Of a stretch of DNA of 64,000 nt, positions 34,615 through 39,645 are shown one piece after another. Every line of letters begins with the position of its first letter. Position 1 is the first letter of the stretch. Position numbers and translations under genes: made by a program. Source of the stretch: Burkholderiales bacterium (GTDB taxonomy: Bacteria > Pseudomonadota > Gammaproteobacteria > Burkholderiales > Burkholderiaceae_F); contig CP070661.1 in the NCBI GenBank assembly GCA_020355165.1, forward strand, positions 2,383,979 through 2,447,978, read 5' to 3'. The notes beneath the pieces were generated by a model. The model was not told the origin of the DNA. It did no database searches and saw only the letters and a program-made list of their open reading frames with translations.

Positions 34615-36258
34615 TCAGAACATCGGCATTGCCGAGGTGGTGCTGTACTCCGGCTCGGCACTGGTGAATCCGCCGTTGCCGCCAGCACCGCCTCCATTGG
34701 TACCCGACAGCGCGCCGCCGCCGCCGCCGGCATCGGTCTGGTGCACCGTCGTGTTCACGTTGGTGTACTTGCCAATGGCGGGGTTGGCGGCACTGTCGGT
34801 CGGGCAGCTGCGGTTGCCGCTGATCACGACGTAGTTCTGGTTGTCGAGCGCACCGGTCACGCCGCGGTAGTACAGCGGGTGTTCGCTGTTCGACACCTGG
34901 CCGTCGGCGACGTAGTCACCGGTGTAGCGGCACAGCTTGAAGGCGCCGTTGGCCTCGCCGAGGAACCAGCCGCCGACCGGTGCGATCCTGAACTTGCCCC
35001 ACCAGCGGTTCGGCGTCGCCGGATTGTTGTCGTCGTACGGGGTCACGATGCAGGTGTAGGCGACGAAAGTGGACAGTTCGTCGTCATACCCGGGCGGCGC
35101 GGTCTCCTGCTGGGGGATGATGATCTGCTGAACCTGGGTCACGGTCGAAGGCAGCGTGCCGCCCGAAACGGAGCCGTCGGCGGCATCCTGCGCGTAGCTC
35201 AGCGAGTTGCCCGACGCCGAGAGCAGCCGGAACACGCCGTTGAAGCTGACGTTGGCCGGGCTGTTGACCGAAACGAACTGGCCGGCGCTGAAGCCATGGT
35301 TGCCGGACGTGGTGACGGTGACGACCTTGCCGGCGCGCGTGGCGCTGCTGATGTTGCGCGGTGCCGCGATGTTGCCGGCGCTGACCGTCTTCTGGCGCTG
35401 GGTGAAGCAGGCGCCGCCCGCGCCCACGTAGGTGTCGACCAGCGCGTCGAGTTCCTTGGCCGGGCCGACCGGATTGACGAAGTCGCTCAGGCTGAAGCTG
35501 CCGAGGACGAAGCGGATGTAGCCCGACAGCAGGTAGCGCTTGACCTCGTACTCGGTGCAGGACGTGCCGTCGTCGTAGACCGCGTCGAAGCTGACCGCCG
35601 TGCCTTCGCGCAGCGCCCCGGTGCACTCGCCCAGCACCACGCCGGTCGTGTTGTCGAAGACGAAGAACCGGCCGCCGGCGCCCGGTGGCGAGAAACCGCT
35701 CTTTTCTCCGCCCAGGCTGACTGCCGGGTACGGAATGTCGAGGCTGCGGTTCTTCGGCGAGCGCGGCTTGATCGGGCCGGGACCGACCGCCAGGGTGCCG
35801 ATGCTGCCGGCGTCCGAGCGGGCGATGACCGACCGCAGCGACACGTTCTGGACCTGGTCCGTTCGGTCTGTCCAGCGGACCTCGACCCGTATCCACTTCT
35901 GCGGGTCGGTCCCGTTGCCGGCGACCGTCCACGTGCGCGTATACGAAGTGCTGGTGACGTAGTCGCCGTTGGCCCTGTCGATGGTGTCGCTGCCGCTGAC
36001 CACGTCGTCGGTGTAGTCGAACCGGTTGCCGACGCCGTCCGCGGCAACCTGCTCGAACGCCCGCAGTTCCTCCATCTTCAGCTGCGCCAGCCGCACGGCC
36101 TCGGTCCGCTGCTTCGCCAGATCCGAGCTGTTCGAAAGCGAGACGTAGAAGGTGGCGACGGCCATCATGCCGAAGGCGGTCACCAGCAGCGACGTCAGCC
36201 CCTCGATCAGCGAGAAGCCGAGCTGCCGGCGCAGTGCTGGCGGTGTCGTTGCGTACAT
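34615..36258 (-). CDS. oversized PilV-like minor pilin
   Basis: This is a predicted type IV pilus tip/minor subunit. The 547-residue protein begins with a class III signal, GFSLIEGLTSLLVTAFGMM (cleavage after Gly14), and the PilV-like helix FYVSLSNSSDLAKQRTEAVRLAQLKMEELRAF. A PilV-type stretch follows (RVEVRWTDRTDQVQNVSL). It is about three times the usual PilV length. Residues 300-378 form a separate beta-rich module (TSGNHGFSAGQFVSVNS...NGVFRLLS...SVSGGTL). Cysteines are scattered through the C-terminal half, and a Gly-rich segment (511-530) precedes the end. GAGG lies upstream of ATG. It is the last gene of the operon. Confidence 0.82.
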   Translation of the reverse strand: MYATTPPALRRQLGFSLIEGLTSLLVTAFGMMAVATFYVSLSNSSDLAKQRTEAVRLAQLKMEELRAFEQVAADGVGNRFDYTDDVVSGSDTIDRANGDYVTSTSYTRTWTVAGNGTDPQKWIRVEVRWTDRTDQVQNVSLRSVIARSDAGSIGTLAVGPGPIKPRSPKNRSLDIPYPAVSLGGEKSGFSPPGAGGRFFVFDNTTGVVLGECTGALREGTAVSFDAVYDDGTSCTEYEVKRYLLSGYIRFVLGSFSLSDFVNPVGPAKELDALVDTYVGAGGACFTQRQKTVSAGNIAAPRNISSATRAGKVVTVTTSGNHGFSAGQFVSVNSPANVSFNGVFRLLSASGNSLSYAQDAADGSVSGGTLPSTVTQVQQIIIPQQETAPPGYDDELSTFVAYTCIVTPYDDNNPATPNRWWGKFRIAPVGGWFLGEANGAFKLCRYTGDYVADGQVSNSEHPLYYRGVTGALDNQNYVVISGNRSCPTDSAANPAIGKYTNVNTTVHQTDAGGGGGALSGTNGGGAGGNGGFTSAEPEYSTTSAMPMF

Positions 36259-36289
36259 TGCAGGTCCTCGGCTCCGGTGGTGCGCCCGC

Positions 36290-37645
36290 TTAGAACGGGG
36301 TCTCCTTGTCGCGCCAGCTGCCCGGCACCCGCACGACGAGGCCGGTTCCCTGGCCGGCGAAGAAGATGTGCGGCGAATAGATGAGGTCGAGCGTGCCGGA
36401 ACCCTTGTTGAAGTCGCCGCGCGTGACGAAGCTGCCGAACACCTTGGCCGTGCCGCTGCCGGCGTAGTCCCAGTTCTCGAGCGCCGTCGCCGTGGCCACG
36501 TAGAACATCCCGTAGGCGGTGATGTTTCCCCTCAGCTCGAGCGACGACGAGCCGGCCAGCGTGATCGGCCGGCTTGCCGTGCCGAGCGTTCCGGCCGAGG
36601 GAATCGTGCTGTTGCTGAAGGACACCGCGGTGTCGGCCCAGAACTGCGTGACTCCGCGGTCGTAGGCCGAGGCCACCGCGCCGCCGCAGTTGTTGCCGGC
36701 GACGCATGAGGTGCAGCGCTCGCGCGTGCCGCACGAGCCGCTGGTGATCAGCCAGGTCAGCGGGCTCGCCTGGTATTCGGCCGGCGTCTGGCCGAAGAAG
36801 CTCTGGAAGTAGAGCTCGCCGCTCGAATCCGCATTGGCCAGCGTGTTCAGCGACGGGTCGTTGTCGAGGATCGACGCGCGCGGCGGCGTCCCGGGCAGGG
36901 TGGTGACGTTGGTCCCCATGCCGAGCTCGACCGAAGTGCCCGAGTTGATGGTGACGCCGTTGCTCTCGGTGTCGAGGTTGATCACGTTCAGGTTGCCGCC
37001 GGTGACCGCCGAGGAGCCGGCGATGAGGCCGGCGCCGGGTCCGTGCGGGAACTTCGGCCGCACCTTGATCAGCGAGCGAACGACCGCCACCCCGTCCGGG
37101 GTCGCCGACGAGCCCGGATCACAGGGCGCGCCCTGGTTGGTGCATCCGTACGACATGACCTCGACCGTGGTCGGGTCGCCGCCCACCGGATTGAACTGGA
37201 CCGTGAAGCGCGGATCGGCGGCATTGCCGAGCACCGGCGCGGTGCCGCTGACCGGGCAGCTGCAGGTGGTCGTGCCGTCGGCCGCGACGCTGCAGCCGGG
37301 CCGCGGCGGGTTGGTGGTGACGATCGTGAAGCTGACCGGCTCGGTGGCGCTCGGCGCCAGGTAGCGGTCGCGGAAGCTCTGCGTTCCGCTGCCGGTCGCA
37401 CACGACGGCGAGGCGCCGATGAAGATCTCCTCGTTCAGACGGGCGACTGCCCACTCGAGCCCCGCTTCCGCCATCTCGAAGGCGCGTGTCGAGCGGTACT
37501 GGTTGGCCGAGGTCTTCTGCTCGAAGATCAGCCCGCGGTTGGCGTAGAAGGCCACCACCGACATGCCGAAGACCAGCACCAGCGAAATCACCAGGGTCGC
37601 GGCGCCTCGCTGGCAGCCTGCTGGTTTGATGTCCTTCGCTGTCAT
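36290..37645 (-). CDS. pilX: oversized PilX-family minor pilin assembly protein
   Basis: This minor pilin-like protein is needed in related systems for pilus assembly and adhesion. The 451-residue protein has the PilX N-terminus (CQRGAATLVISLVLVFGMSVVAFYANRG, no GFTLIE glutamate pattern). The amphipathic helix RSTRAFEMAEAGLEWAVARLNEEI follows. Typical PilX proteins are about 160-200 residues. Here about 250 extra residues follow, rich in Ser, Thr, Gly and Asn with beta-helix-like stretches (SSLELRGNITAYGMFYV) and cysteine pairs (CGTRERCTSCVAGNNCGG). It starts seven bases after pilW. Strong N-terminal family call; the C-terminal region is not recognised. Confidence 0.83.
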   Translation of the reverse strand: MTAKDIKPAGCQRGAATLVISLVLVFGMSVVAFYANRGLIFEQKTSANQYRSTRAFEMAEAGLEWAVARLNEEIFIGASPSCATGSGTQSFRDRYLAPSATEPVSFTIVTTNPPRPGCSVAADGTTTCSCPVSGTAPVLGNAADPRFTVQFNPVGGDPTTVEVMSYGCTNQGAPCDPGSSATPDGVAVVRSLIKVRPKFPHGPGAGLIAGSSAVTGGNLNVINLDTESNGVTINSGTSVELGMGTNVTTLPGTPPRASILDNDPSLNTLANADSSGELYFQSFFGQTPAEYQASPLTWLITSGSCGTRERCTSCVAGNNCGGAVASAYDRGVTQFWADTAVSFSNSTIPSAGTLGTASRPITLAGSSSLELRGNITAYGMFYVATATALENWDYAGSGTAKVFGSFVTRGDFNKGSGTLDLIYSPHIFFAGQGTGLVVRVPGSWRDKETPF

Positions 37646-37652
37646 GGCTGGC

Positions 37653-38390
37653 TCACACCGTCGGGCAGTTGCCGTCGAGCCGGTCGTTGCGCACGCGCAC
37701 CGATTGCCGGATCTCCCGGCGCACGGCCGGGTCGTGGACCGCCTCGCCGGCCACCACGATGTCGAACTGCCGGATGGTCATCCGCGGGCGCGTGCTCTCG
37801 TAGGGCCCGGAGGCCTGGAAGTCGGCGGCGCTGCAGGTCAGCCGTGTCAGGCAGGCGCAGTACGTGTACAGCTCGACCACGCGCGGCGTCGCCAGGGGGT
37901 TGATCGTCAGCGTCGTGACCCTCAGGACCTTCGGGTCGGTGAGGGGCTGCCACTGCTCGCTGTCGCCGGTGGCGTCGCGCGCGGTGAGGAACTCCAGCAC
38001 GCCGTCGTTCAGCCTGTAGCCTGCCCACTCGGTCGTATCGACGGTGTCGTTGCTGTCGTGCGCGAACGAGTACTTGATCACGTCCGCCCCCAGCTCGATC
38101 TGCCGGTAGGGATTGGGCGCCGGGGCCGTCGAGCCCGTGGTCGAGAACATGCCGCTGATCGCGTTGTTCCAGTAGCCGGCGCGGCGAAGGTCGCGGACGA
38201 TCAGGTCGGCCGCCGCCCGCAGATCCTGGTTCACGCGCGTCTCGAGCAGCAGGCGGCGGTTGCTGGCCAGGGTGTCGCTCATCAGCTTGATGGCGCCGGT
38301 CAGCACGATCAGGCCGACGGCGATGCCGACCAGCAGCTCGATGACCGACATGCCCCGCTGGCTGTCCATCCCGGTCGACCGTGCTCTCAT
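37653..38390 (-). CDS. pilW: PilW-family minor pilin
   Basis: This is a predicted minor pilin for type IV pilus biogenesis. From ATG 38390 the protein has 245 residues. It has the prepilin signal QRGMSVIELLVGIAVGLIVL (cleavage after Gly) and the characteristic PilW segment RRLLLETRVNQDLRAAADLIVRDLRRAGYWNNA. Cysteines near the C-terminus (YTYCACLTRLTCSAADF) may be disulfide-bonded in the periplasm. AGGAAG lies eight bases upstream of ATG 38390; a GTG at 38399 is the alternative. It lies 13 bp after fimT. Confidence 0.88.
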   Translation of the reverse strand: MRARSTGMDSQRGMSVIELLVGIAVGLIVLTGAIKLMSDTLASNRRLLLETRVNQDLRAAADLIVRDLRRAGYWNNAISGMFSTTGSTAPAPNPYRQIELGADVIKYSFAHDSNDTVDTTEWAGYRLNDGVLEFLTARDATGDSEQWQPLTDPKVLRVTTLTINPLATPRVVELYTYCACLTRLTCSAADFQASGPYESTRPRMTIRQFDIVVAGEAVHDPAVRREIRQSVRVRNDRLDGNCPTV

Positions 38391-38403
38391 CGGTGGCACT
38401 TCC

Positions 38404-38976
38404 TCACGAACAGTCCGTCGAGTAGCCGGTCACGTGTCCGGCGCCGTTCGGGCTGCACGTGTCGACGCGGCCCATCGCCGTCAGCACCGCGCGCAGCAGC
38501 CATGCGGTGCCGGTGGTGCTGCGCACGTCGACCGACGCCGGGCCGGTGCCGGCGCTGTTCGCGACGGTGCCGCGGACCGGGTCGAACTCGACGAAGAACG
38601 GCAACGTTGCGGTGTCGATCACCAGCGGCCGTCCGGCCTGCAGCTGCACCGTCTTGATCTCGGCGGCCGTCGGCGCGATGGTCTTGGTCGGCGCGGCCGT
38701 GCTGGCGTCGCATTCGGCGCTGCTCGCGCTGGCCAGGTGGATCACGTAGCAGCGCGGCCCGAAGGTGATGCGCACCGGGGCGTTGCGGCTCACCGCCTCC
38801 GAGCGGGCGTAGTGCAGGTCCGTCACCAGCTCTGCCATGACCCCGTCGACGCGCCGCTTCGACAGGAAATCGGCGAACGAAGGCGCGGCGAATGCGATCA
38901 GCACCGCGGCGATCGTCAGCACGATCATCAGCTCGATCGTCGTGAAGCCTGCGCGGCGGCTTCGGCGGGGACTCAT
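38404..38976 (-). CDS. fimT: GspH/FimT-family pseudopilin
   Basis: This minor pilin is likely to prime or cap type IV pili. Some FimT relatives bind DNA in natural transformation. The 190-residue protein starts [22 protein letters not shown]: a basic leader, cleavage after Gly, Glu5 of the mature protein present. It contains the GspH/FimT segment LVTDLHYARSEAVSRNAPVRI and ends in a Cys-containing tail (CSPNGAGHVTGYSTDCS). Its ATG overlaps the stop of the upstream pilin by four bases. Confidence 0.9.
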   Translation of the reverse strand: MSPRRSRRAGFTTIELMIVLTIAAVLIAFAAPSFADFLSKRRVDGVMAELVTDLHYARSEAVSRNAPVRITFGPRCYVIHLASASSAECDASTAAPTKTIAPTAAEIKTVQLQAGRPLVIDTATLPFFVEFDPVRGTVANSAGTGPASVDVRSTTGTAWLLRAVLTAMGRVDTCSPNGAGHVTGYSTDCS

Positions 38977-39551
38977 CGGTTCCAGCACCGGTTGTTGGCC
39001 GCCATCGCGTTGGCGACTGCGATGGTTGCGCCCGAGGCCAGCGACACGTTGCCGCCGGACATCGTCAGCTGAAGGTATCGGCAGTTGGCGTCGCCGGCCT
39101 GCGCGCCGGTCGCCGTGGCCAGGATCTGGTAGCCGCTCGCCGACTGGCTCGGCACCGACAGCGTGTAGTGGCCATCGGCGTTGGTCGCTGCCACGCCGAC
39201 GTCGGTCAGGGAACCGTAGGCCGCGGCGTTGGCGCGCCAGCGCTCCTGCGCCTGCTGGACCTGCGAGATCCGTGTGATCGCGTCGCCGCGACGGGCCTTG
39301 CGCACGCTGTCCAGGTAGGAGGGAAGGGCAAGCGCGGCGAGGATGGCGACGATCGCCACGACCACCGTGATCTCGATCAGGGTGAAGCCGGCGATGTTCG
39401 ATGCGGCGGCAGGCCGACCGCTGATCGGCGTGCGCGGGCCGTTCGCGCCTGCGCCTGCGCCGGCCAGGTCCGCGCAGCCGGCCGGTATCGACGAATGAAC
39501 CGAGACCGAAGGTGCCGCGAGCGACTGCAAGGGATGCATTGCCTTTTTCAT
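38973..39551 (-). CDS. type IV pilin (PilE-like) with an unusually long leader
   Basis: This is the first gene of the minor-pilin operon. From ATG 39551 the protein has 192 residues. The core IAGFTLIEITVVVAIVAILA and SYLDSVRKARRGDAITRISQVQQAQERW is a standard PilE/ComP-like pilin, ending with a disulfide-type Cys pair (CRYLQLT...NNRCWNR). The predicted cleavage Gly is residue 55, so the leader is about 55 residues, Ala/Gly/Pro-rich, rather than 6-20. No in-frame ATG, GTG or TTG closer to the Gly is visible. GTG 39575 is an alternative start. A sigma-54 promoter lies about 95 bp upstream. Confidence 0.85.
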   Translation of the reverse strand: MKKAMHPLQSLAAPSVSVHSSIPAGCADLAGAGAGANGPRTPISGRPAAASNIAGFTLIEITVVVAIVAILAALALPSYLDSVRKARRGDAITRISQVQQAQERWRANAAAYGSLTDVGVAATNADGHYTLSVPSQSASGYQILATATGAQAGDANCRYLQLTMSGGNVSLASGATIAVANAMAANNRCWNR

Positions 39552-39645
39552 CTTTGCCTTGAATCTCGACCTCACTGGGCTGATCGGGTGCCCGCCCGGG
39601 CGGGGGCAATTCGCCGCGCCAGCCCATCACCTTGACTTGGTATCC

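Follow-up and report, generated by a model that had tools for sequence, protein, structure and literature searches.

In Pseudomonas, Legionella and Myxococcus, the minor pilins of type IV pili (T4P) are encoded in a canonical fimU-pilV-pilW-pilX-pilY1-pilE operon, and in the well-studied type IVa pili (T4aP) the priming complex includes PilY1. In E. coli, the ppdA-ppdB-ygdB-ppdC genes follow the order fimT-pilW-pilX-pilV without pilY1, and a review lists neither a PilY1 nor a PilE counterpart for this species (PMC7248040). The same order is found in the competence minor pilins of V. cholerae, namely VC0858 (FimT)-VC0859 (PilW)-VC0860 (PilX)-VC0861 (PilV), and models for V. cholerae and for S. 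pneumoniae place the pilin that lacks Glu5 (PilX/ComGG) as the cap (PMC12040237). Another described system is ComZ of Thermus thermophilus (PDB 6QVI), in which an ice-binding-type beta-solenoid of about 380 residues is inserted into the sheet of a pilin fold; its closest relative is the ice-binding protein FfIBP, it binds DNA, and it has been argued to fit only at the pilus tip (PMC6561018). The comZ gene adjoins pilA2, which is called PilV-type, and the minor-pilin paralogues of Xylella have functionally diverged (PMC9956873). Myxococcus has three minor-pilin/PilY1 clusters that work with a single shared machine, and different tips have been proposed to result from them (PMC7541494).

A minor-pilin operon of the pilY1-less gene order

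We analyzed a 64,000-nucleotide stretch, hereafter the window, from a Burkholderiales bacterium (GCA_020355165.1, contig CP070661.1, positions 2,383,979 to 2,447,978). Its ORFs include a five-gene minor-pilin operon, entirely on the minus strand, in the order pilin-fimT-pilW-pilX-pilV (Table 1). An earlier note on this DNA had reported this gene order, with which ORFs, strand and family matches all agree, and the window ORFs also confirmed that the cluster ends in a PilV-like gene of 547 residues, that an EamA transporter gene comes next and that pilY1 is absent. The pilE ORF opens at 39575, with the ATG at 39551 as the likely start, and its stop is overlapped by the fimT start codon; spacing within the operon consists of overlaps or of at most about 30 bases. 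Prepilin motifs are intact in all five products, and at mature position 5, PilX has Val whereas the other four have Glu. The products comprise one class III leader prepilin each of the FimT(H), PilV(I), PilW(J) and PilX(K) types, the set that marks T4aP minor-pilin (tip/priming) genes, with the PilV and PilW assignments resting on matches below the curated NCBIfam cut-offs. The source genome also encodes T4P machinery, as seen from a PilM match (PF11104, E 2.3e-140). A foreign origin was ruled out on the basis of GC content, which is 0.67-0.71 in the cluster and 0.70 in the window.

Table 1. Features of the minor-pilin operon and its neighbour, in window coordinates
Feature	Coordinates	Strand	Evidence
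Type IV pilin (PilE / ComP_DUS-like)	38973..39575	-	ComP_DUS E 1.1e-19, N_methyl (Pfam); GFTLIE motif
FimT/GspH-type minor pilin	38404..38976	-	GspH E 4.2e-8, N_methyl (Pfam)
Degenerate FimT DNA-binding motif GRVD	38461..38472	-	Sequence; cf. GRxR
PilW minor pilin (PpdB-like)	37653..38399	-	N_methyl; PRK10557 E 3.5e-15, under curated cut-off
Enlarged PilX, 451 aa	36290..37645	-	PilX_N E 5.6e-11
Predicted beta-solenoid insert of PilX, residues 195-431	36353..37063	-	Foldseek and VIA-align on model
Enlarged PilV-like minor pilin, 547 aa	34615..36258	-	TIGR02523 (PilV) over residues 12-76; E 6.5e-7; 29.9 bits, below the curated cut-off of 52.2
PilV stretch, residues 310-371 (VVTVTTSGNHGFSAGQ...)	35146..35331	-	No counterpart in eight aligned PilV relatives (alignment A4)
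Gly-rich C-terminal tail of PilV	34618..34737	-	Alignment A4
EamA transporter, next gene after pilV	34447-33557		

No pilY1 was detected beside the operon, either among the window ORFs or by PilY1 BLAST and HMM searches, and the locus is therefore not a canonical PilY1 operon. Because the window is free of N runs, this local absence is not an assembly artefact. The canonical operon shares with the window the minor-pilin types H, I, J and K as well as pilE, whereas its order is I-J-K-pilY1 rather than J-K-I, and only the canonical operon contains PilY1. The fimT-pilW-pilX-pilV order without pilY1 instead places the locus with the PpdA/PpdB/YgdB/PpdC and VC0858-0861 type. The statement in the earlier note that such clusters are usually joined by pilY1 thus applies to the canonical type but not to this order. 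The two C-terminal genes of the set differ from their E. coli counterparts in size, with YgdB having 135 aa and PpdC 107 aa against the 451 aa of PilX and 547 aa of PilV in the window, and PilX has in addition a predicted solenoid.

Operon conservation and the distribution of PilY1

To collect relatives, we used PilX by itself to search 399 Burkholderiales genomes and a PilX alignment to search GTDB contigs, which yielded 24 other genomes of the order and 79 named loci. We built HMMs and applied them to the window and to 99 further stretches, among which each of two pairs comes from a single genome and some sets are cut by contig ends; one stretch (L062) holds a stand-alone pilX only, leaving 98 other loci. 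Most of these loci, which are mostly from Burkholderiales, encode pilE, fimT, pilW, large pilX and pilV in that order; in several, fimT or pilE is out of place or present in an additional copy. A PilY1 HMM, built from two sequences only, gave zero matches in the flanks of the 98 loci (about 9 kb, shorter on short contigs). These results indicate that the pilY1-less state is the rule for this operon type; pilY1 is missing at every other locus compared, so its absence, to which the earlier note had drawn attention, is ordinary and not peculiar to the window. A full-length large PilX is likewise the norm for the operon type (91 sequences including that of the window, 334-498 aa).

Several variants of the locus were also seen. 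Tandem duplicate fimT-pilW-pilX-pilV sets, one of them with pilE, occur in L046 (7493-14555), and two genomes (G345 and G077) have three full-length PilX genes apiece. In L045 (7787-8857), a gene for a PilU-like retraction ATPase, as judged from its sequence, lies directly 3' of pilV and would tie the operon to the T4aP machine.

Outside the window, a PF05567 search of the source genome found four PilY1 places. Two complete operons of the canonical type have the orders fimT-pilV-pilW-pilX-pilY1-pilE (L005; PilX 186 aa, PilY1 694 aa) and pilE-fimT-pilV-pilW-pilX-pilY1 (L006; PilX 222 aa, PilY1 1159 aa), and their PilX proteins are small compared with that of the window. C-terminal PilY1 fragments were also found in L006 (14615-15589) and in L007 (4270-5091, scoring below the Pfam cut-off), both ending at or near a 100-N gap. 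A fifth pilY1 piece follows another fimT-pilV-pilW-pilX set and runs into a gap (L063, 5652-7595); on our reading of the sequence, it would be an N-terminal PilY1 fragment with a von Willebrand-like start. Some of the gap-bounded pieces may be halves of one gene. The source assembly (3.74 Mb) is a single record, all N runs in the three stretches listed are exactly 100 bases long, and contig order across these gaps may be artificial. The earlier note had suggested that the enlarged PilX and PilV-like subunits stand in for PilY1, and had named, as one part of what would speak against this, the occurrence of pilY1 elsewhere in an operon of its own; two such operons are present. Given these complete pilY1 operons elsewhere in the genome, the source organism needs no stand-in for PilY1.

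Of the 50 named operon genomes, 38 matched PF05567 elsewhere and 12 gave no match. In the order sample, the N-terminal as well as the C-terminal part of the PilX family was matched in 21 genomes. Each of these was PilM-positive, and eight had no PilY1 match. Among the PilM-positive genomes of this sample, the operon was present in 8 of 43 without PilY1 and in 13 of 246 with PilY1 (OR 4.1, p 0.006). Four of the eight PilY1-less operon genomes belong to one genus, however, and a genus-level test, with genera hand-counted and one cell approximate, gave p 0.16. Direct complementarity with PilY1 was therefore dropped despite the raw p value, and we do not claim that the operon replaces PilY1.

We further counted prepilins in eight PilY1-less genomes, with cluster types read from contig positions and annotation used for the operon itself only. 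Apart from the operon, four of them (G290, G178, G252 and G421) show only T2SS-like or two- to three-gene sets. None of these four genomes has a PF05567 match, and no five-gene T4P minor-pilin set other than the operon was seen in them; three of the four, G290, G178 and G252, have a strong PilM match. Further prepilin sets are present in G345, G105 and G446. Because PF05567 is absent from the four relatives, their PilX/PilV set must manage without PilY1, if that absence is real, and their T4P are most likely primed by the operon in the absence of PilY1. These relatives support a capability of the operon, not replacement of PilY1 in the source strain. Isolates with the operon and without a PilY1 match are Quisquiliibacterium transsilvanicum, Rhodoferax sp. 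U2-2l, Roseateles oligotrophus and Marinobacterium sediminicola.

Predicted structure of PilX and variation in FimT and PilV

An AlphaFold2 model of PilX computed from the 91 sequences reached pLDDT 89.4 and pTM 0.84, whereas the single-sequence model reached a pLDDT of only 34. In the model, a long N-terminal helix (residues 14-70) is followed by a pilin sheet, into which a beta-solenoid (residues 195-431, approximately) is inserted. In a Foldseek search against the PDB, ranks 1-3 were the three chains of Thermus ComZ (6qvi, E 6.4e-5 to 4.9e-4). With VIA-align, residues 195-431 resembled ice-binding proteins (Z 12-14), the pilin part resembled Streptococcus PilA (Z 8.1), and both domains together resembled ComZ (Z 8.9, 267 residues, rmsd 11.7); an rmsd of this size over both domains suggests that the angle between them in the model differs from that in ComZ. 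Since identity to ComZ is 12% and global superposition is poor (TM 0.21), the likeness rests on domain architecture. PDB sequence searches gave no match for PilX or PilV. From the model, PilX is predicted with confidence to be a pilin with an ice-binding-type beta-solenoid inserted in the pilin sheet, as in DNA-binding ComZ, with a shorter solenoid (about 237 residues). We found no prior report of a ComZ-like PilX in Burkholderiales in the literature searched, whose coverage was incomplete.

Across the 91 PilX sequences, the residue counts shown for position 5 include no E. Seven cysteines are kept in 66-78 of the 91 sequences and a C-terminal GxWxD in 80, and the window PilX retains both. As Glu5 is missing, as it is in capping pilins, PilX is probably a capping pilin. 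The solenoid contains 11 K/R and 16 D/E and is slightly acidic.

FimTs that have been shown to bind DNA carry a C-terminal GRxR motif (PMC8897410). In the window FimT, the second basic residue of this motif is lost, and the protein does not have the C-terminal signature of a FimT DNA receptor. The motif, in the form G[RK]x[RK]xC, is present in 70 of 93 loci with a FimT match, and other FimTs of the source genome keep it (GRPR in L063 and GRVR in L065). The window operon may thus have drifted away from FimT-mediated DNA binding, with PilX or PilV taking over this role or another surface being bound.

PilV was aligned with relatives of about 365-685 aa (alignment A4), and nothing matched its C-terminal half in Pfam. 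PilV length varies by lineage, with about 365-430 aa in most and about 125-235 aa in some, and the longest are those of the window, L074 (10334-12391, 685 aa) and L058 (5563-8547, 994 aa). From these sequences, PilV enlargement is a subfamily-specific trait. Residues 310-371 of the window PilV form an HG-type beta stretch, a kind of stretch found in phage tail and adhesin proteins. A Pfam scan of the alignment found Flg_new (Listeria-Bacteroides) repeats in one of nine PilVs, which fits the long insert of L074.

A probable PilY1-independent tip and its alternatives

We regard it as likely that the operon encodes a complete, PilY1-independent minor-pilin tip (priming) complex with the PilX solenoid exposed. 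By analogy with the V. cholerae and Streptococcus models, PilX would cap the complex, with PilV, PilW, FimT and then the pilin beneath it, and the filament would be extended by the shared PilM/N/O/Q machine. The exposed tip, which PilY1 forms in other pili, would consist of the solenoid and, next to it, the enlarged PilV. The operon would thereby probably build an alternative pilus tip, and the T4P of the strain would have tips of at least two kinds, one formed by PilY1 and one by the PilX solenoid, similar to the proposal for the Myxococcus clusters. What endures of the suggestion that PilX and PilV stand in for PilY1 is the predicted ComZ-like form of PilX and the four PF05567-negative relatives with only such a set; for the source strain, which has its own pilY1 operons, and for an operon type in which the lack of pilY1 is normal, it does not hold as worded, and an enlarged-PilX tip as an alternative to the PilY1 tip is plausible instead. 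DNA would be the leading guess for the ligand, because ComZ binds DNA, all nine genomes tested, the source genome among them, encode ComEC, and most sister operons have GRxR FimT motifs. Points against DNA or an alternative tip are the GRVD of the window FimT, the slightly acidic solenoid and the pilY1 operons, which may prime all pili.

The source genome has several pilY1 fragments besides its two complete pilY1 operons, and most of the named operon genomes (38/50) have PilY1 elsewhere. In view of this, the operon could also be an ordinary, redundant one that primes the same pili, its enlarged PilX and PilV recruiting genomic PilY1 in trans with no substitution of the tip. A dependence of this kind is described in Myxococcus, where PilY1.3 accumulation requires PilX3 (PMC7541494). 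We consider this rather unlikely, since 12 of the 50 named and 8 of the 21 order-sample operon genomes have no PilY1 match, pilY1 adjoins the operon at no locus, and the window PilX already has a bulky tip domain, in contrast to the PilX proteins of the PilY1 operons.

It is far less probable that the five proteins form a T2SS-like pseudopilus or secretion cluster instead of a T4P tip. GspH/GspG models also pick up FimT and the pilin, with scores under the NCBIfam cut-offs, and the H-I-J-K homology is compatible with such a role, but the PilX_N, PRK10557 (PpdB) and TIGR02523 (PilV) matches, the separate T2SS-like GspGHIJK genes of the source genome (L064, with a likely set at L066) and the PilU-like ATPase gene right after pilV in L045 argue against it. 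We give equally little credence to a relict operon, with proteins that might have lost the ability to assemble. Erosion of the FimT motif points this way, as does the absence of the operon from the relatives sampled, with no full-length match in two members of the genus (77% complete) or in others of the family, yet the five frames are open and overlapping or tightly spaced, their prepilin motifs are intact, their GC content resembles that of the flanks, and PilX retains its conserved cysteines and C-terminal motif.

Beyond the source strain, we see an even chance that a PilY1-independent tip of this kind belongs to a widespread family of minor pilins, ComZ-like and capped by a solenoid, that occurs in Burkholderiales and in some Gammaproteobacteria. 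Such a family would replace PilY1 altogether in some genera and serve as an alternative DNA or surface receptor beside PilY1 tips in others. The PilY1-less isolates carrying the operon make the idea of a PilX tip directly testable. If it is true, a broad operon class would cap pili with a ComZ-like PilX and the tip would be a swappable module, and ComZ-type tips would be a common proteobacterial design, no longer a peculiarity of Thermus.
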